From Gammaproteobacteria bacterium (GTDB lineage Bacteria; Pseudomonadota; Gammaproteobacteria; DSM-19610): a stretch of 43,125 nucleotides of DNA. This document shows, piece after piece, positions 2,671 to 41,565 of the stretch (position 1 is the stretch's first letter; each line of letters starts with the position of its first letter). Below the pieces are notes generated by a model. It ran no database searches and was not told where the DNA came from. It saw only the letters and a program-made list of their open reading frames with translations. Made by a program: the position numbers and the translations under genes. The DNA is taken from NCBI GenBank assembly GCA_030621785.1, contig JAUXGZ010000008.1, forward strand, positions 1 through 43,125, given 5' to 3'.

Positions 2671-2829
2671 CACTCGAACAGCCCCTGCTTTCAACCTCGG
2701 GGGTCGATTGCCGCCGACCAAAACTGCTTGTATTCTGCTCCAATATTCTTTTTTATCAGCAAGTTACAATGGAGCGCGTCTCCACGGTCGATTTCAGGGC
2801 CGCACACCCGGAGCAATCAGGTAAATACC

Positions 2830-3780
2830 ATGAAACACGCAGTCTACATCCAGACCAATCACAAACAGATTACCGGTGCCATCGTTGCCGAATACGCCAT
2901 ACGGCGTTACTCCCGCAACAATGACAAGTTCGATGTGCACATTATCGAGAAAAAAGACTATTCCTGGTTCGATGATCGTGAAGGTCAGATGTACCTGCGT
3001 GATGGCGTCCGGCGCAAGTGGCTCAACAACGACCTCCAGTCCTTCACGCTGACCCGTTTCATGCCGCCGGAGTTGATGGGCTACGAGGGTCGCGCAGTGG
3101 TCATCGACCCCGATGTCTTTCCGTCTTCAGATACCTGGGATCTGCTGTCACGGGATATGCAGGGCAAGTCCCTCATGTGCCGCCCCCGCTCCGGCACCAA
3201 GGGTATCATCGACCGTTGCCTGGCCAGCAGTGTCATGCTGCTGGATTGCGCGAAACTTCACCACTGGAAAGTCGAGCAGTGGTTCAATGAAATGTTCGAG
3301 CAAAAACGTGACTACATGCCCTGGATCTGCCTGCGTTACGAAGACCGCGATAACATCGGGCTGTTTGAAAACGAGTGGAACGATTTCGACAAGTTGACGC
3401 CACAAACCAGGATGCTGCATACGACGCGCCGCAAGACCCAGCCCTGGAAAGCGGGCCTGCCGATCGACTGGCGTCCGGCCGAGCGCTTCCGCCTGTTTCC
3501 GCCCGCAGCCTGGGTCATGCGGGCACGCCGCCGCCTGTTCGGCGAATACGCGTTGCTGGGTAACTACAAGGTGCACCCGGACAAGAATCAGGAAAACTTC
3601 TTCTTCGGTCTGCTAAAAGAGTGTGTCAACAAGGGCATCATTTCAGAAGATTTCGTACGTGAGGAGATGCGCCAGAACCACGTGCGTCACGATGCCTTTG
3701 AAGTGCTCGACCGTACGCCGGATCTCCCGCCGGGCCCGCAACATCCGCTGTCGGTAATAACCCGGCAGGCTGCCGCATGA
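2830..3780 (+). CDS. Putative GT8-like glycosyltransferase, paralog 2
   Basis: Tandem paralog of 1732..2670; start set to ATG at 2830 because the paralog starts with the same MKH.VYIQTNHKQI. Confidence 0.6.
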   Translation: MKHAVYIQTNHKQITGAIVAEYAIRRYSRNNDKFDVHIIEKKDYSWFDDREGQMYLRDGVRRKWLNNDLQSFTLTRFMPPELMGYEGRAVVIDPDVFPSSDTWDLLSRDMQGKSLMCRPRSGTKGIIDRCLASSVMLLDCAKLHHWKVEQWFNEMFEQKRDYMPWICLRYEDRDNIGLFENEWNDFDKLTPQTRMLHTTRRKTQPWKAGLPIDWRPAERFRLFPPAAWVMRARRRLFGEYALLGNYKVHPDKNQENFFFGLLKECVNKGIISEDFVREEMRQNHVRHDAFEVLDRTPDLPPGPQHPLSVITRQAAA

Positions 3781-7292: not shown

Positions 7293-9032
7293 ATGCAGTT
7301 AATGCTCTTCTTTTTCCGGGCCCACCCCTGGCAATCCCTGATCACAGTGATCTCGCTGCTGCTTTCCGGCATAGCCGAGGGCGTCGGTCTGTCAGCGCTG
7401 CTACCACTACTCAACCTGGCATTGAACCAGGGAACACGTCATGTCCAGGATGGCGGACAGGGGCCTGCGGGCGATTTTGAACAAACCGTCATTGACCTGA
7501 TGGCCCAGATCGGACTGTCGCCCACCATCGGGGCGTTGCTGTCCGTCATAGTAGTCGCAGTAGCACTGAAGACGGTCCTGTTGCTGATTGCGACCAGGCA
7601 GGTCGGCTATACGGCTGCACGGGTTACCACCGACCTGCGCCTGCAGCTGTTGCATGCCATCCTGCGCAGCAAGTGGGAGTTCTTTCTCAGCCAGCCGCTC
7701 GGCAAGCTGTCCAATAGCCTGGCTACCGAAGCCAATCGCTCGTCGAGCGCCTTCGTGGGTGGCATAACACTGATCACTTACGTAATCTATGCATTCATCT
7801 ACGGCTCGGTCGCGATCGCAGTCTCATGGAAAGCCACCCTGGTCAGCCTCGGTGTCGGTGTGCTGATCGTTGCACTGTCACATTCACTGGTTCGAATGGC
7901 TCGCAAGGCTGGCAAGAAACAGACCAGGCTGCTTAAATCGCTGCTAATCCAGCTCAACGACACCTTGCAGTCGGTCAAACCCCTGAAGGCCATGGCGCGA
8001 GAGCACCTTGCGGATAGCTCGCTGCGCGCCAAAACCAACCGGCTCAACAGCACACTGCAAAAACAGGTTCTCAGTGCCGCAGTACTCAACTCCGTACAGG
8101 AACTGCTTTTTACCATCGTCATCGCGCTCGGCATGTACCTGGCACTGGTCCGTTTTGATATGCCGATGCCAACGGTCATGATCCTGGTAGTTGCGCTGGG
8201 GCGCATGTTAAACCAGTTCGGCAAGGTCCAGAAGCAGTACCAGAAAATGATGACGCTGGAGAGCGCATTCTGGTCCATGAAAGAAACTATCGACACCGCC
8301 AGAAACGCCGAAGAACATCTCGGACACGGCACGATGCCGCCACCACTGAAGTCCGGCATACGGATGCAGGAGGTATCGTTTGCATACGGCGAAAACCAGG
8401 TACTGAACAAGCTGTCACTGGATATTCCCGGAGGCTCGCTGACCACACTTACCGGTCCTTCGGGCGCTGGAAAAACGACCATAATCGATCTGATCATCGG
8501 TCTGCTGAAACAGCAGTCCGGAGAAATTCTTATCGACAACATGCCACTGGGTTCACTGGAACTCAGGGAGTGGCGCCGCATGATCGGCTACGTCCCCCAG
8601 GAAACCATCCTGCTACACGACAGCATACTGCACAATGTCACCCTGGGTGACCCGGAATACAGTGACCGGGACGCCGAGGCTGCACTGCGAGCCGCCGGTG
8701 CCTGGGAATTCGTGGCCGCACTTCCGCAAGGCATACATAGCGTGGTCGGAGAACGTGGCGGAAGACTCTCTGGCGGCCAGCGCCAGCGCGTGGTGATCGC
8801 ACGGGCACTGGTGCATCGGCCCAAACTGCTGATTCTTGACGAAGCCACCAGCGCACTGGACCCGGCCAGCGAAGCCGCCATTGCCAGATCAATCGAGGAA
8901 CTACGCGGTGGCCAGTTGACGATACTCGCCATCTCCCACCAGAAGCGACTGGTTGACGCCGCCGACCATGTATATCGCCTTCAGGATGGCCAGGCCCTGC
9001 TGGTTGATCGCCAGGAGCCTGTCCCGGAATAG
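7293..9032 (+). CDS. ABC transporter, fused permease and ATP-binding domains (MsbA-like)
   Basis: Walker A 'GPSGAGKTT', signature 'LSGGQRQRVVIARAL', Walker B 'LLILDEATSALD'; six-helix N-terminal domain. Confidence 0.88.
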   Translation: MQLMLFFFRAHPWQSLITVISLLLSGIAEGVGLSALLPLLNLALNQGTRHVQDGGQGPAGDFEQTVIDLMAQIGLSPTIGALLSVIVVAVALKTVLLLIATRQVGYTAARVTTDLRLQLLHAILRSKWEFFLSQPLGKLSNSLATEANRSSSAFVGGITLITYVIYAFIYGSVAIAVSWKATLVSLGVGVLIVALSHSLVRMARKAGKKQTRLLKSLLIQLNDTLQSVKPLKAMAREHLADSSLRAKTNRLNSTLQKQVLSAAVLNSVQELLFTIVIALGMYLALVRFDMPMPTVMILVVALGRMLNQFGKVQKQYQKMMTLESAFWSMKETIDTARNAEEHLGHGTMPPPLKSGIRMQEVSFAYGENQVLNKLSLDIPGGSLTTLTGPSGAGKTTIIDLIIGLLKQQSGEILIDNMPLGSLELREWRRMIGYVPQETILLHDSILHNVTLGDPEYSDRDAEAALRAAGAWEFVAALPQGIHSVVGERGGRLSGGQRQRVVIARALVHRPKLLILDEATSALDPASEAAIARSIEELRGGQLTILAISHQKRLVDAADHVYRLQDGQALLVDRQEPVPE

Positions 9033-9056
9033 GCTGACCTGCTGCGGACAGCATGA

Positions 9057-9253
9057 AAAATTTTTAGCAACGACTTTGTCAGGGATATCGCGACTGACCC
9101 CAATGATGCCATCATCGTGGATACCATTATCTCAAAGGTGTGGAAACCAGTGAGCAGGTTCACTTCCTGGACGATAGAGGTTGCCATTTCTACCAGGGAT
9201 ACTACTTCAGTAAAGCCCTGCCGCAAACCCGGTTTATTGACTACCTGGAATCC
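9057..9253 (+). pseudogene. Decayed EAL-domain (c-di-GMP phosphodiesterase) C-terminal remnant
   Basis: 'KIFSNDFVRDIATDPNDAIIVDTIIS' in one frame, then 'KGVETSEQVHFLDDRGCHFYQGYYFSKALPQTRFIDYLES' in another; the VIAE-proximal segment is deleted. Confidence 0.85.
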
Positions 9254-10439
9254 GGGGTCCGCGGGCAAACAACTGCCTGACTCGCTCCAGCGCACGCTGA
9301 ATATCAGTAATCGGTTCCGGCATTTTTTCCGGAAAGTTTTCACCCAGCCAGACCGCGCGGCCTTCGGCCAGCAATTGCCGGTGAACCAGGCGAATATCAC
9401 GGCCAAGGCGCCGGGGACCGAAACGTATCAACTGGCTGTAGGAAAGCCCCCGCAGACGATGATCCACCCCCGTGCCAGCATCAATTGGCGTCCGCATCGG
9501 GTACTGCCTGGAACCGATATCGAGCATGTACACGGGCTTGCATGTTGTACAGGCCTCGCTCAGCATCGAAATGCTGTCCGCAGAGACAATCAGTTGGTCA
9601 CTAAGGGCCAGGATACCGGTATAGGGATTCACACCGTCGCTCTTTTTCCAGCGATACAGATCAAACGGCACCTCGAGTTCCTGTTCCAGCACATCCGTGA
9701 CTTCCGGAGAGGTGCGGGCACTGGTGGTAATCAACAGCGAGCCACCGCTGTTGCGCACCAGGTGGTTCGCTTCGCGTGCCAGACGCAGGGCGGTCTTCCT
9801 GCCAAAGGTGTAGGGGCCACTGTCCCCGCCCAGCAGCATCCCGGTGAAGGGTCCGGATAGCGCGGTATAACGCCCGCGCCATTGCAATGCCTGCTCCTCC
9901 AGCCACTGCGGAGATACCAGGCTCAGGGTCATGGTGTTGCACAGGACATTGTCACGCCGGGGAAGCGGATACTGGGGGGTGGTAATAACCAGATCGAAGC
10001 ATTCCGGGTCGGCCCAGGGCCGACCGACATGAACCAGTCGGGTTTTGCCTCCGGACTGATTACGTATCCAGCGACCGACCGGCTCGTTGCGCATGCCGGC
10101 AGAAAGCACCAGGTCGGGCCAGGGTGGCGTCAGCGGGCTGGACCTCTGCTGGCGGATACCACGCAGGTCACTGCCGCGAAACAGACTGGTGGTGAACTCG
10201 GTCTTCCGGTACGACAACTCCTTGATTTCACAGGGCCATCCCAACAGGTCCGCCAGGGCGATCAACTGACTCCGCTCACCGGCCCGGTAGCCGGTGACCA
10301 CCCATACCCGGGGCTCAGACCCGTTGTACTGCGGCCCGGCCCGGCCCGTTTTCGTCGTTTTTTTCAGCACCCTGCTCCACAAACCAGGAGGAATTTCCTC
10401 AAAAATGCCGCTTGCCGTGGCAACATCGGCCAAACACAA
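9234..10439 (-). CDS. ELM1/DUF1022 family protein, paralog 2
   Basis: 'RVWVVTGYRAGERSQLIALADLLGWPCEIKELSYR' and 'MLLGGDSGPYTFGRKTA'; similar to 3783..4940. Confidence 0.8.
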   Translation of the reverse strand: MCLADVATASGIFEEIPPGLWSRVLKKTTKTGRAGPQYNGSEPRVWVVTGYRAGERSQLIALADLLGWPCEIKELSYRKTEFTTSLFRGSDLRGIRQQRSSPLTPPWPDLVLSAGMRNEPVGRWIRNQSGGKTRLVHVGRPWADPECFDLVITTPQYPLPRRDNVLCNTMTLSLVSPQWLEEQALQWRGRYTALSGPFTGMLLGGDSGPYTFGRKTALRLAREANHLVRNSGGSLLITTSARTSPEVTDVLEQELEVPFDLYRWKKSDGVNPYTGILALSDQLIVSADSISMLSEACTTCKPVYMLDIGSRQYPMRTPIDAGTGVDHRLRGLSYSQLIRFGPRRLGRDIRLVHRQLLAEGRAVWLGENFPEKMPEPITDIQRALERVRQLFARGPRIPGSQ

Positions 10440-10501: not shown

Positions 10502-10744
10502 ATGCCTGAATATAACGAATTTCTTGCCCATATCTTCGACATACTGAAACCCTACGCCAAGCGGGGACTGATTCTCAACGAGAACAGCGAGCTCGTCACC
10601 GAGCTGGGACTCACCTCGCTGCAGGTCATGGAGCTGATCGAACAGATTGAAGATCACTTCGATATCTGTATTCCGCTGAATATCCTGCCAGATATCCGCA
10701 CTGTACGCGACCTGGCCGTGAAACTGGAAACTATAACCGCCTGA
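10502..10744 (+). CDS. Acyl carrier protein
   Basis: 80 aa, 'ELVTELGLTSLQVMELIEQIEDHFDICIP' with candidate phosphopantetheine serine. Confidence 0.85.
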   Translation: MPEYNEFLAHIFDILKPYAKRGLILNENSELVTELGLTSLQVMELIEQIEDHFDICIPLNILPDIRTVRDLAVKLETITA

Positions 10745-10748
10745 TACC

Positions 10749-13195
<2,447 letters not shown>

Positions 13196-14944: not shown

Positions 14945-17900
14945 CTAAGACTTCGCCCTGGACTTCATCTTCGCGCTACGCCGCAATCGTGCACCGAGCC
15001 GCCGCGCCAGTTCGCCAAACAATTCCGTCTGCGTCGGGTGCGGATGAATCGCTTGCCCCACCTGCTCCAGTGTCATATTGCCAGAGACCATCATCACCGC
15101 CTCACCGATCAGGGTATCCGCATGATCTGCCAGCAGATGCACGCCAATAATCCGCTGCGTCTTCTTGTCCGCCACGATCTTGATCACGCCGTGCAGCTCA
15201 TTGTTGATCATGGCCTTGGCATCGATACTCATCGGCACCTTGACCTCGGCTGCATCGATGCCCCTGGCTTTTGCCTCGTCCATCGACAGACCCACAAAGG
15301 CCGCTTCCGGACGGGTAAAGATCACCCCGCAGTCCTTGTCCTGGTCGTACTTCATGTCCTCGCCGAGGATGGTTGCGGCCGCGACGCGACCCTGCTGGGC
15401 AGCAGTATGCGCCAGCATGAGACCACCGATGACATCGCCGATGGCGAAAATATGCGCTACGCTGGTGCGGCAACGGGCATCTGCCTTGATGATGCTGTGC
15501 TCGCTGGCAACACCCGCCTTGTCGAGACCCAGGCCATCCAGTACCGGACGCTTGCCGGTACCCATGATGACATAGTCCACCTTGCTGCTGTGTGCCTTGC
15601 CGTCTGCATCCTTGTACTTGACCGTCACTGCACCGGCCTTGCCGGAGATCCCGTCGATCTGTACCGAGGTGTGCACGGTCAGGCGCGGGTCATCGTTCAG
15701 CACTGCCGTCAACTGGCGTGCAATCTCCGGCTCCACTTCCGCGAGAATACGATCTTTTGCCTCCAGCACCGTGACACTGGAACCGAAGTCCTGGAAGATC
15801 TGCGCCATCTCCAGTCCAATTGCACCACCACCAATGACCACCAGCTTTTTCGGCTGCTTGTCGAGTGCCCAGACCGTGTCAGAGGTCAACACACCGCCGC
15901 CCTCGACCAGTCCTTCGATAGCACCCGGGATCGGCGGCACGAACGGCGGTGCACCGGTAGCGATTACCGCACAACCGAAGCGGACTTTTTCCCCTGCCGG
16001 CTGATCGCCGTTCGGCGCACGCGTGTGCGGATCTTCCTGGTTACCGGAGGTGTCGATAAGCAAGGTATGTTCATCGACGAAGCGGCCGAAACCCTGCACG
16101 TAGTTAATCTTGACGCCCTTGTCGGTCTTCAGCGCCATATCGCCACGGGTCTCCAGTATCTTGCGGCGCGTGGCATCGAGCTGGCCCCAGTCCAGGCTTG
16201 CCTTGCCGGTGCTGACACCCAGATGCCCGTCATCCAGACGATCACGAATGCGGTCGGCGGCTGCGCGCCAGGCCTTGGACGGAATGCAGCCGCGCCACAG
16301 GCACTCACCACCCGGCAGTGGTGCATCGTTCACCAGTGCCACCTTGAGTCCGTGCGCAGCGAGATCGCGGGCACAATCTTCACCACCCGGCCCACCACCG
16401 ACGACCACTACGTCGTAGTCCCAGTCACCTTCCGGTATGGCGGGACCGGTCGGCCCCATCCAGCTTTCCGGCTGTTCGACCAGGTCCTTCAGGCCTTGCA
16501 GGTACATGGCGACATCGGCACCATTGACCACCCGATGATCGGCCGTAATGGTAAACGGACTACCAGCATCGGTATTGGCCGAAATAGCCAGAATCGCCGC
16601 AATACCCGGTGTCGCAATGGCATCGAAATGACTCACACCGAACATGCCCATATTGGAAATCTGGAACGTGGAGCCGGTGTATTCATCGGGCTTCAGGCGC
16701 CGCTTGCGGGCGCGCTCGACCAGGTCCTTCCAGTCTTCGTTCAGCGCGTCAAGTTCACGCGACTCACAACCGCGCAGTACCGGCACCACCAGTCCGCCAC
16801 CATCCGCAGACACCGCCATACCGATATCAACACTACTGCGTTCTACCAGCTTGTCCTGCGGCTGGTAGCACCAGTTCATGTTGGGAAAATCACGCATGGC
16901 GAGCGCACAGGCCCGGGCAATGGCCACGGTAACCGATGCACCCTGGGCCCTGGAAGCCTTGATCAGGCGTCCCAGGCTGATACTGGTGGTAACGTGGAAA
17001 GTCGGCATACTCAACGAGGCGGCCATCGCATCGCTGGTCGCTTTTTCAAGCTTGCTCATGGGACGACCGTCACCCGGCACATCGACCTGCGGGAAACCGG
17101 CGGCGGCCGGCACCACCGCCGCTGGCCTCGATGCCACATCGGCAGCCACAATCACCCCGCCCGGCCCCGTACCACCGATGGCATTCAGATCCATACCACG
17201 CTGCCCGGCAATCGCCCGGGCCTGTGGCGTCGCACCACGACCATGCGGCCGCGCAGCCGGTGCACCACCAGATGAAACTGCAGAAGGTGTCGAAGCCGCG
17301 GGCGTAGCAGCAGTCTCCGCTGCATTTGCAGGTGCTTTCTTTACGGCCGCCGGCGCGGCTTCCTCGTCGACTACCTGATCCGCATTTTCCACCAGGTAGG
17401 CCAATGCACCACCCACCGCGACCGTGGCATCCACGGGCGCCAGCGGGCCGGAGAGGTAGCCCTCCCGAAACACCTCGACGTCCATGATGGCCTTGTCGGT
17501 CTCGACCGTCGCCACCACCGTACCGCGCTCGATCCGGTCACCGATATTCTTTTCCCAGCTAACCAGCATGCCTTCGGTCATGGTGTCCGAAAGCTGCGGC
17601 ATGGCAATCGTGTAGCTCGCGCCTTCCGGTGCCGCGCTGACTGCTTCCGCAGGCGCGCTGTCCTGAGCCGTTTCCGGTTCAGCCGCCGGGCTGGCCGGAG
17701 CCGCTGATCTTTCGGCGCTGGCTGCGGCGGCCGGAGCCGGTGCTGCCGCATCACTCTGCCGTACTTCGTCTGCTGACGCCGCGATATACCCCATGGCCTC
17801 GCCAACCGGAATGGTGCTATCAAGCGGCGCCAGCGGACCGGAAAGATACCCCTCGCGGAATATCTCGACATCCATGATGGCCTTGTCGGTCTCGACGGTG

Positions 17901-18016
17901 GCCACGATATCTCCACGCTCGACCTTGTCGCCGATGTTCTTTTCCCAGCTGACCACCACACCTTCGGTCATGGTGTCCGAAAGCTGGGGCATCTTGATTA
18001 CATAAGGTTCAGCCAT
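14945..18016 (-). CDS. Fused dihydrolipoamide acyltransferase (E2) and dihydrolipoyl dehydrogenase (E3) of the pyruvate dehydrogenase complex
   Basis: Two lipoyl domains (ETDKAIMDVE twice), peripheral subunit-binding segment, acyltransferase domain, then 'VVVVGGGPGGEDCARDLA...GGECLWRGCIPSKAW'. Confidence 0.9.
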   Translation of the reverse strand: MAEPYVIKMPQLSDTMTEGVVVSWEKNIGDKVERGDIVATVETDKAIMDVEIFREGYLSGPLAPLDSTIPVGEAMGYIAASADEVRQSDAAAPAPAAAASAERSAAPASPAAEPETAQDSAPAEAVSAAPEGASYTIAMPQLSDTMTEGMLVSWEKNIGDRIERGTVVATVETDKAIMDVEVFREGYLSGPLAPVDATVAVGGALAYLVENADQVVDEEAAPAAVKKAPANAAETAATPAASTPSAVSSGGAPAARPHGRGATPQARAIAGQRGMDLNAIGGTGPGGVIVAADVASRPAAVVPAAAGFPQVDVPGDGRPMSKLEKATSDAMAASLSMPTFHVTTSISLGRLIKASRAQGASVTVAIARACALAMRDFPNMNWCYQPQDKLVERSSVDIGMAVSADGGGLVVPVLRGCESRELDALNEDWKDLVERARKRRLKPDEYTGSTFQISNMGMFGVSHFDAIATPGIAAILAISANTDAGSPFTITADHRVVNGADVAMYLQGLKDLVEQPESWMGPTGPAIPEGDWDYDVVVVGGGPGGEDCARDLAAHGLKVALVNDAPLPGGECLWRGCIPSKAWRAAADRIRDRLDDGHLGVSTGKASLDWGQLDATRRKILETRGDMALKTDKGVKINYVQGFGRFVDEHTLLIDTSGNQEDPHTRAPNGDQPAGEKVRFGCAVIATGAPPFVPPIPGAIEGLVEGGGVLTSDTVWALDKQPKKLVVIGGGAIGLEMAQIFQDFGSSVTVLEAKDRILAEVEPEIARQLTAVLNDDPRLTVHTSVQIDGISGKAGAVTVKYKDADGKAHSSKVDYVIMGTGKRPVLDGLGLDKAGVASEHSIIKADARCRTSVAHIFAIGDVIGGLMLAHTAAQQGRVAAATILGEDMKYDQDKDCGVIFTRPEAAFVGLSMDEAKARGIDAAEVKVPMSIDAKAMINNELHGVIKIVADKKTQRIIGVHLLADHADTLIGEAVMMVSGNMTLEQVGQAIHPHPTQTELFGELARRLGARLRRSAKMKSRAKS

Positions 18017-18022
18017 GGCTTG

Positions 18023-19003
18023 TTACTTCCCGAACATCCTGCGCACCCTTTCGACGACATCACCGGCATTCGGTATAGCCGCTTTCTCGAGGGTATGGTT
18101 ATAGGGGATCGGCACATTGACCGCCGACACGCGCTGTGGCGCAGTATCCAGTTCAAAGAAACATTCCTCGTTGATAATGGCAATCACCTCGGCACCGACA
18201 CCGACAGGTGCCTCGGCCTCCTCGACCACCACCGCGCGGTGCGTCTTGCGTACCGAGCTAACGATTCCCGCGCGATCAATCGGACTCAGCGCATAGAGAT
18301 CGATGACCTCCGCCTCTATACCGAACTGCTTTGACAGCGTTTCCGCCGCCTGCAGACACCAATGCACCGAAATATTATAGCCGAACAACGAAACATCACT
18401 TCCCTCGCGCGCCACCTCGGAACCTACCAGCGGATGGAAATACTCTTCGTCCGGCACTTCGCCCTTCAGGTTGTACATCAGCTCGTGCTCGTTAATGTAC
18501 ACCGGGTCATTGCAACGCACCGCAGACTTGAGCAGTCCGTAAGCCTGTCTGGGGTTACTCGGTGTCACCACGCGCAAACCGGCAATCCCCATGAATACCT
18601 TTTCCATGCGGGCCGAATGCTGGGCACCGAGCTGATGCGCGGTACCGCCCGCGGAGCGAACCACCACCGGCGCCTGCAGCTGACCACCGGACATGTAACG
18701 CACCTTGGCCGCCGAGTTGAACAACTGATCCATGGCCAGCCAGGCAAAGTTGACCGACATGATTTCGATTATCGGACGCACACCCAGGAACGAGGCGCCA
18801 ATACCCAGGCCGGTGTAGCCGTTTTCGGAGATTGGCGTATCGATTACTCGCTCCGGACCATATTTATCGAAAAGTCCCTGTGTCGCCTTGTAGGTGCCAC
18901 CGGCCACACCGATATCCTCACCCATAACGATCACCAGCGGATCGTTGGCCATCTCTTCATCGTGGGCGCGCCGCAGCGCTTCCCAGTACATTATTTCTGC
19001 CAT
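18023..19003 (-). CDS. pdhB: Pyruvate dehydrogenase E1 component, beta subunit
   Basis: 'MGEDIGVAGGTYKATQGLFDKYGPERVIDTPISENGYTGLGIGA'. Confidence 0.9.
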   Translation of the reverse strand: MAEIMYWEALRRAHDEEMANDPLVIVMGEDIGVAGGTYKATQGLFDKYGPERVIDTPISENGYTGLGIGASFLGVRPIIEIMSVNFAWLAMDQLFNSAAKVRYMSGGQLQAPVVVRSAGGTAHQLGAQHSARMEKVFMGIAGLRVVTPSNPRQAYGLLKSAVRCNDPVYINEHELMYNLKGEVPDEEYFHPLVGSEVAREGSDVSLFGYNISVHWCLQAAETLSKQFGIEAEVIDLYALSPIDRAGIVSSVRKTHRAVVVEEAEAPVGVGAEVIAIINEECFFELDTAPQRVSAVNVPIPYNHTLEKAAIPNAGDVVERVRRMFGK

Positions 19004-19995
19004 TAGCGGCCACCTCCGTATACCCAGGGGTCGTTCTCTGCGAGGATGTATTTTTCCAGTTCCTCGACACGCGGCTCGGGAGACGACTCGGCGAACGCGA
19101 TGACCTCGTTTTCGATCTCGTCGAGAATTTCGGTATCCATATTCTTGTAATCGTCCCTGGTGATTTCACCCGCTTCGATCAGGCGATCGCGCAACATGAT
19201 GACCGGGTCACGCCTGGACCACATACGTTCCTCGGTCTTGGAGCGATAGGCGTTGGAATCCGACATGGAATGACCGCGATAGCGATAGGTCATCAGTTCC
19301 AGGAAATACGGCCCCTTGCCAGAGCGCACATGCTTGACCGCCTTCTGAGCCGCCTGGTACACCTTTTCCACATCCTGGCCGTCTTCCTGTGCAGACGGGA
19401 TGTTGTAACCGGACACACGCTTGTACTGATCGATCACTGCGGTAGAGCGATCGATACGGGTACCGATTCCATACAGATTGTTCTCGCACACGTACAGTAC
19501 CGGCAGATCCCACAACTTGGCCATGTTCAGCGATTCGTGGAAGGTGCCCTGGTTGTTGGCTGCATCACCGAGGAAGCACACCACGATCTCGTCACCACCC
19601 TTCATCTTGACGGCCTTGGCCATACCGGCAGCCAGCGGGAACGGTCCGCCGACCAGTGCGTAGCCGCCCATGAAGCGGTGTTCCACGTCGAAGATATGCA
19701 TCGAGCCACCGCGCCCCTTCGAAGAACCGGTCTCCCTGGCATACAGCTCAGCCATCACCTTGCGCGGGTCCGCGCCGGCCTTGATAGCGTGCACGTGATC
19801 ACGATAGCTGGTCACCACGTAATCGTGGCCGGGCTTTGCCGCTTCCAGCACCCCGAATGCACAGGCTTCCTCACCCGAATACAGGTGCAGGAAACCACCA
19901 ATTTTTCGTTCCACGTAGGCTTCGTAGCAGCGCTCTTCAAAGCGCCGGGCAAACAGCATTTCGCGCAGCAGGCGTTTCTTGTCGGCAACGTTCAT
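19003..19995 (-). CDS. pdhA: Pyruvate dehydrogenase E1 component, alpha subunit
   Basis: 'LARRFEERCYEAYVERKIGGFLHLYSGEEA'-type N-terminus, thiamine-PP motif 'GDAANNQGTFHESLN'. Confidence 0.9.
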   Translation of the reverse strand: MNVADKKRLLREMLFARRFEERCYEAYVERKIGGFLHLYSGEEACAFGVLEAAKPGHDYVVTSYRDHVHAIKAGADPRKVMAELYARETGSSKGRGGSMHIFDVEHRFMGGYALVGGPFPLAAGMAKAVKMKGGDEIVVCFLGDAANNQGTFHESLNMAKLWDLPVLYVCENNLYGIGTRIDRSTAVIDQYKRVSGYNIPSAQEDGQDVEKVYQAAQKAVKHVRSGKGPYFLELMTYRYRGHSMSDSNAYRSKTEERMWSRRDPVIMLRDRLIEAGEITRDDYKNMDTEILDEIENEVIAFAESSPEPRVEELEKYILAENDPWVYGGGR

Positions 19996-20272
19996 GAGGC
20001 TCCTTGCAGCTCCAGGACCCGTAAGCGGAGTCCATTATTGGTTTGAAACTATTGAAATTACAGGAAAATTTCAGCATGATCCGGACTCATCCAGCAACCT
20101 GCCGAAGCCGAACTTCCGTTCCGCCCGCAATCCGGGAAGACGGTAGAAATCAGGCCCGGTATGATGTTTCTTTTACCGCAGCAGGTCAAGGTGCAAAATG
20201 TCTTGAATTGCGGTGAAAGCGTCGGGAAATCAATGCAAAACTATAGCAAAATCACGGTGTAGGAAAGAAGGT

Positions 20273-21307
20273 ATGAAACTGGTACTGAAGCAACCTGACG
20301 ACTGGCACCTGCACCTGCGCGACCGGGAGGCCATGCACTCGGTGCTGGCGCACACAGCCGCCCGGTTTGGCCGTGCCATCATCATGCCGAATTTGCGAAC
20401 TCCGGTTACCGACACCGGGGCCGCCCGCGACTACCGGCAACGCATACTGGACGCGCTGCCGGCAAACGCAGGCTTCCGGCCCCTGATGACGCTCTACCTC
20501 ACCGACAATACCGATGCCGCAGAAATCATCCGCGCACATGAAAGCGGTTATATCCACGCAGTAAAACTGTACCCGGCTGGTGCCACCACCAATTCTGCGG
20601 CCGGGGTGACGCGCATGGAAAATACCTGGTCGGCCCTGGAGGCCATGCAGGACTGCGGCATGCCGCTACTGGTGCATGGCGAGGTCACCGCGCCGGAGGT
20701 CGATGTGTTCGATCGCGAGATGGTGTTCATCGACAAGATACTGGAACCGCTGCTCAGGCGTTTCCCGACACTGAAACTGGTCCTGGAACACATCACCACC
20801 CGACAGGGCATCGAGTTTGTGCTACGTGGCGGTGACCAGGTCGCAGGCACCCTGACCGCCCACCACCTGTTACTGAACCGGAATGCGATTTTTGCCGGCG
20901 GCATCCGGCCACACCACTACTGCCTGCCCATCCTGAAACGTGAGGCACACCGCGAAGCATTGCTGGAAGCTGCGACCGGAGGCAACCCGAAATTTTTTCT
21001 CGGCACCGACAGTGCACCGCACGCCCGGCACGCCAAGGAAAGCGCCTGTGGCTGTGCGGGTCTCTACACCTCTCATGCCGCCATTGAGCTATATGCAGAA
21101 GCTTTCGAACAGCTCGACCGACTGGACCGGCTGGAAGGCTTTGCAAGTGTGTTCGGCGCGGATTTTTACGGTTTGCCACACAACGAAACGCAGATCACCC
21201 TGTTAAAAGAGGATTGGCAGGTACCGGAAAGTTACCCGCTGGGCAGTGCAGAGCTGGTCCCCATGCGAGCAGGGGAAGTCGTCCACTGGCGACTTGGCGC
21301 GCAATGA
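20273..21307 (+). CDS. pyrC: Dihydroorotase
   Basis: 'QPDDWHLHLRDREAMHSVL', 'FLGTDSAPHARHAKE'; ATG at 20273. Confidence 0.93.
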   Translation: MKLVLKQPDDWHLHLRDREAMHSVLAHTAARFGRAIIMPNLRTPVTDTGAARDYRQRILDALPANAGFRPLMTLYLTDNTDAAEIIRAHESGYIHAVKLYPAGATTNSAAGVTRMENTWSALEAMQDCGMPLLVHGEVTAPEVDVFDREMVFIDKILEPLLRRFPTLKLVLEHITTRQGIEFVLRGGDQVAGTLTAHHLLLNRNAIFAGGIRPHHYCLPILKREAHREALLEAATGGNPKFFLGTDSAPHARHAKESACGCAGLYTSHAAIELYAEAFEQLDRLDRLEGFASVFGADFYGLPHNETQITLLKEDWQVPESYPLGSAELVPMRAGEVVHWRLGAQ

Positions 21308-40933: not shown

Positions 40934-40961
40934 CAAAAAAGAACCCCGCCAGAGCGGGGTT
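40934..40961 (-). terminator. Rho-independent terminator of the cold-shock gene
   Basis: AACCCCGC-TCTG-GCGGGGTT then TCTTTTTTG on the minus strand. Confidence 0.85.
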
Positions 40962-41028
40962 CCTTGTATCGGCCTATCCGATAAGATCTTGCCTGAGCTG
41001 CATTTCGTCCCGCGGCAAGAAGTGCGGG

Positions 41029-41232
41029 TCAGGCGGCAGTAACATTGGCTGCCTGAAGTCCTTTAGGACCTTTTTCCACCTCATAGTTAACCGACTGACC
41101 TTCAGCCAGTGTTTTGAAGCCCGAGCCCTGAATCGCATTGAAATGCACGAATACGTCATCGCCTCCGGCATCCTGAGAAATAAAACCAAATCCCTTGGCC
41201 TCGTTAAACCATTTTACCGTGCCTGTAGCCAT
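41029..41232 (-). CDS. Cold-shock protein, CspA family
   Basis: '[34 protein letters not shown]'. Confidence 0.95.
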
Positions 41233-41565
41233 ATCACTTTTTACCTTGAGTCAATTGAACAAACGGATTGCTGCGTACAGCTAATGACACGGGAAATTCA
41301 TACATTATGGAATACAATGAATGCAACACCTGAAACCACCAGTAACAAAATCTGTAGACGCAGACCCTGTATAGGCGAATTTCCTCAAATTTTCAAGAAA
41401 AATTAATATACTTCTTATGAGAAATGGTACTTCCCCGGGCAAAAACCACCGTCATCCATGATGGATTAATGTAATCGTTAGGGGAAGAGCCGATAAAGTA
41501 AGCTCGCTTCTTCTTTGTCCATTGGGAAAAATGGCGCACCTGATTCTAACGAGATTTATACTCAC

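Follow-up and report, generated by a model that had tools for sequence, protein, structure and literature searches.

The window analysed here, a stretch of 43,125 nucleotides from a draft gammaproteobacterial assembly (112 contigs, 75% complete), contains an ABC exporter gene and a convergently oriented gene, ELM1-2, behind which lie genes for an acyl carrier protein-like product (ACP) and an SPT-like aminotransferase-fold enzyme (SPT). The 3′ ends of the exporter and ELM1-2 genes are separated by DNA derived from the C-terminal part of an EAL-domain gene. The features of the locus are as follows:

7293–9032, plus strand: ABC exporter, upstream, intact and with its own stop codon (Pfam ABC_tran and ABC_membrane; C-terminus comparable with those of relatives)
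9033–9264, no strand assigned: insert absent from relatives, reaching from the exporter stop to the 3′ end of ELM1-2, with GGC at both edges (empty-site comparison; single copy in its own genome)
9033–9065, no strand assigned: 5′ part of the insert, possibly further decayed EAL sequence (suggestive alignment to EAL homologues)
9066–9134, plus strand: EAL remnant, first piece SNDFVRDIATDPNDAIIVDTIIS, before the deletion (translation; co-linear alignment with intact EAL domains)
9134–9253, plus strand: EAL remnant, second piece KGVETSEQVHFLDDRGCHFYQGYYFSKALPQTRFIDYLES, with its frame shifted by the deletion of about 34 nt (translation; Pfam EAL; whole-genome EAL scan)
9234–10439, minus strand: ELM1-2, convergent, with its last ~8 codons (9237–9260) and stop in the insert (Pfam Mito_fiss_Elm1, 1.2e-57; C-termini of relatives)
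10502–10744, plus strand: ACP (Pfam PP-binding; adjoins ELM1-2 in 17 of 17 relatives with the locus)
10749–11930, plus strand: SPT, PLP-dependent (Pfam Aminotran_1_2; 82–87% identical and beside ACP in 17 of 17 relatives with the locus)

The TTG start of ELM1-2 was assigned mechanically and is probably too far upstream, the homology of relatives beginning at about residue 32–44. Elsewhere in the window, a 1023-aa open frame (14945–18016, minus strand) corresponds to an E2-E3 fusion with two lipoyl domains, an E3-binding domain, a 2-oxoacid dehydrogenase acyltransferase domain and a dihydrolipoamide-dehydrogenase-like module; it lies beside E1 subunits at 18023–19995. Three long open frames on the plus strand (1732–2670, 2728–3780 and 20213–21307) have no Pfam match at 1e-5 and may be uncharacterised genes. 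The region 40936–41421 (minus strand) matches the cspA thermoregulator RNA family with 79.7 bits (cut-off 78).

Translation and alignment identify 9066–9253 on the plus strand as the C-terminal part of an EAL domain split over two reading frames. The peptide of the first piece, ...KIFSNDFVRDIATDPNDAIIVDTIIS, is read in the frame of 9033 and that of the second in the frame of 9035, position 9134 at the deletion junction being common to both readings. The joined read-through matches the Pfam EAL family PF00563 with an E-value of 7.9e-8 and 32.4 bits, above the cut-off of 31.3 bits. The second piece alone reaches 6.1e-7 and 29.5 bits, under the curated cut-off, and the first alone gives no match. 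When all six frames of the genome were scanned with the EAL profile, the second piece was recovered (E = 5.7e-6) together with 13 intact EAL domains. On these scores, the EAL match of the remnant is well above chance expectation. Both pieces are co-linear with the C-termini of intact EAL proteins, the closest one sampled (G302:C1:2495860-2496078, in an open frame of 1154 aa) showing 63% identity over about 62 residues. The decayed EAL C-terminus reported in the initial annotation is thus borne out by both the family match and the co-linearity.

The remnant carries the disabling lesions of a pseudogene fragment: a frame-changing deletion, a truncated 5′ side and a TGA codon at 9054–9056, which is in frame with and upstream of the first piece, as noted earlier. 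Alignment to intact EAL proteins places a single internal deletion of about 34 nt (11 codons and 1 nt) where these proteins have MARHLGLDVVA and the first base of the following codon, with approximate breakpoints that only the parent sequence could fix; this is near the size of the dozen codons plus a frame change first proposed. Homology to EAL genes is seen from 9066 onwards. For the 33 bases before it (9033–9065), an alignment to EAL genes is possible if several small gaps are allowed; its score, equalled by 3 of 60 shuffles, is suggestive without being significant. The remnant begins downstream of both the EAL and DDFG motifs, and the part of the catalytic barrel that bears them is not represented; the sequence upstream of the insert is the end of the intact exporter gene. 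Neither piece contains a stop codon and the usual EAL C-terminal residues are retained, indicating that the remnant is either of recent origin or constrained in its drift.

The genomic context was examined by searching for ELM1-2 in 56 genomes. Each of the other 16 genomes from the genus carries the gene, as does one genome from a different genus of the family, and ACP and then SPT follow behind it at all 17 loci. At two of these loci the sequence is cut by a contig end and no exporter was found, leaving 15 informative relatives, among them the one from the other genus. In all 15 the exporter and ELM1-2 are convergent neighbours. In 13 of these the stop codons are –21 to +27 bp apart, the genes overlapping in several, and in 14 the two genes are separated by no more than about 33 bp. 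In one genome (G014) the homologous regions are about 33 bp apart and the ELM1-2 frame is broken by an earlier stop; in another (G011) the stop-to-stop distance is 131 bp. The in-frame stop of the former (L033, G014:C2:47580-48641) falls early in the conserved part of ELM1-2 and reflects either a pseudogene or an assembly error.

The same convergent order in 15 informative relatives indicates that the adjacency of exporter, ELM1-2, ACP and SPT is ancestral; this order is therefore an old conserved feature of the group and not a recent assembly of parts. Judged by gene order, the EAL piece arrived later, in the line leading to this genome, between genes that were already adjacent. The initial annotation had taken the remnant to mark a recombination or gene-loss event by which ELM1-2/ACP/SPT came to lie beside the exporter. 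The exact position of the remnant at the boundary of the two gene groups would suit such a scar, but the groups are nowhere apart in the informative relatives, which have the same order and adjacency and lack the EAL piece, and this explanation now retains next to no probability. An intact EAL gene was seen at the locus in none of the relatives.

The junctions of relatives serve as empty sites, which delimit an insert of about 232 bp at about 9033–9264, with edges fixed within 2–3 bp. At the left edge the exporter stop codon is retained, and at the right edge the ELM1-2 coding sequence resumes with GCAAACA. When the flanks are joined, they read ...GGAATAG|GCAAACA..., compared with ...GGAATAA|GCAAACA... 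at the empty site of G016, where GCAAACA stands directly 3′ of the exporter stop. The span first given for the remnant, 9057–9253, holds for both peptides as they were described, while the insert defined by the empty sites is slightly wider. The draft state of the genome could point to an assembly artefact; however, the flanking genes continue in the ancestral order, the edges fall at gene ends and the piece duplicates no other sequence of the assembly, making an artefact very unlikely.

The only candidate target-site duplication, a GGC of 3 bp found at each edge, does not exceed chance expectation, and no inverted repeat of at least 8 nt surrounds the insert. A mobile repeat of the MITE or REP-like kind was rejected because of the lack of such repeats and because a genome search found the insert in single copy. 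A Ku gene, which would offer an end-joining route, was not found in this incomplete genome and turned up in only 3 of the 17 genomes of the genus.

The 131-bp spacer of G011 (L028:1358-1488, G011:C224) contains a palindromic element of about 91 bp, which has 43 matches in its own genome and others in nine further members of the genus, but none in the genome studied here. Like the EAL piece, it adds sequence between these two convergent genes; it differs in being repeated, whereas the EAL piece is neither palindromic nor present in more than one copy. The finding of two unrelated additions there in 16 genomes suggests that the exporter/ELM1-2 junction tolerates extra DNA. Such DNA between convergent genes should do little harm.

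The stop of ELM1-2 at 9234 lies inside the antisense of the EAL remnant, as had been observed from the open reading frame. The protein ends in ...ARGPRIPGSQ, and comparison with the C-termini of relatives assigns its last ~8 residues (GPRIPGSQ) to antisense insert sequence, in agreement with the proposal that they derive from the junction. These final residues should accordingly be treated with caution, as they are not native. The ELM1-2 proteins of relatives run on for no more than about 8 residues past a conserved hydrophobic stretch (mostly LF), and these tails are short and freely variable in length and sequence. The short new tail is probably harmless.

Nearly all of the EAL barrel is missing, and the remnant therefore cannot act as a phosphodiesterase. 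Some other retained role, such as coding for a small protein, forming a transcript end or giving ELM1-2 a useful new tail, could be read from the changed tail and from the pieces being free of internal stops. Against it stand the short and variable tails of relatives and the insert itself, in which no promoter, terminator, Rfam family or unusual or significant RNA fold was detected, so that such a role is extremely unlikely. Retention of the EAL-derived DNA for some benefit of the altered tail or of a short remnant product is barely conceivable. By far the likeliest reading is that the remnant is neutral, non-functional scrap.

The search for a donor covered the 17 genomes of the genus, samples of 369 genomes from the class and 399 from the phylum, the GTDB contig collection and plasmids. 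At 63% identity, intact EAL C-termini from two other genera of the class come nearest, and no closer donor was found in any of these sets. The best match within the genus shows 56% identity. No parent copy was found in the genome itself, which is about 75% complete, and the parent may sit in the missing part; its 13 intact EAL domains are all more distant than the 63%-identical match. With a G+C content of 0.504, the insert ranks at the 9th percentile of the window, low but not extreme, and falls slightly short of the EAL C-termini of the same genome (0.52–0.58). A foreign origin is possible; the composition is not decisive.

Taken together, these observations are best explained by a pseudogene scrap, a piece of an EAL gene inserted between the abutting 3′ ends of the convergent exporter and ELM1-2 genes in this lineage only, a reading to which we assign a probability of about 0.9. 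The piece would have entered between the two 3′ ends either short from the outset or as a longer insertion trimmed afterwards. About 34 nt have been lost internally, putting the remainder out of frame, and the sole visible effect is an ELM1-2 reading frame that runs about 8 codons into the insert before ending. Since neither a close donor nor a genome of the same species is available, a short insertion and a trimmed longer one cannot be separated.

One variant of this explanation holds that a complete EAL gene was inserted and then eroded to its last ~65 codons. Entire genes are common units of transfer, the remnant extends to the natural end of an EAL protein, and failed transfer is, along with decay of native copies, a recognised source of prokaryotic pseudogenes (PMC522871). 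However, on either side the flanking sequence is preserved up to a few bases from the ancestral gene end, so that erosion must have halted at the edges of the insert, and no intermediate occurs in any relative. Such an erosion of a whole gene is conceivable but on balance doubtful.

By itself, an EAL-derived scrap between the exporter and ELM1-2 carries little weight, being one more intergenic gene fossil. It resembles the C-terminal part of EAL cyclic-di-GMP phosphodiesterases (PF00563), with which it is co-linear and of which it retains the GVET and QGYYFS stretches; it differs from intact enzymes in comprising only about 65 codons, with the deletion and frame shift and with most of the barrel gone. 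Like the prokaryotic intergenic pseudogene fragments described by Liu et al. (2004; PMC522871), it combines protein homology with disablements between annotated genes. It does not differ from them in kind; here, relatives supply the empty site, and hence the timing of the insertion relative to the neighbouring genes.
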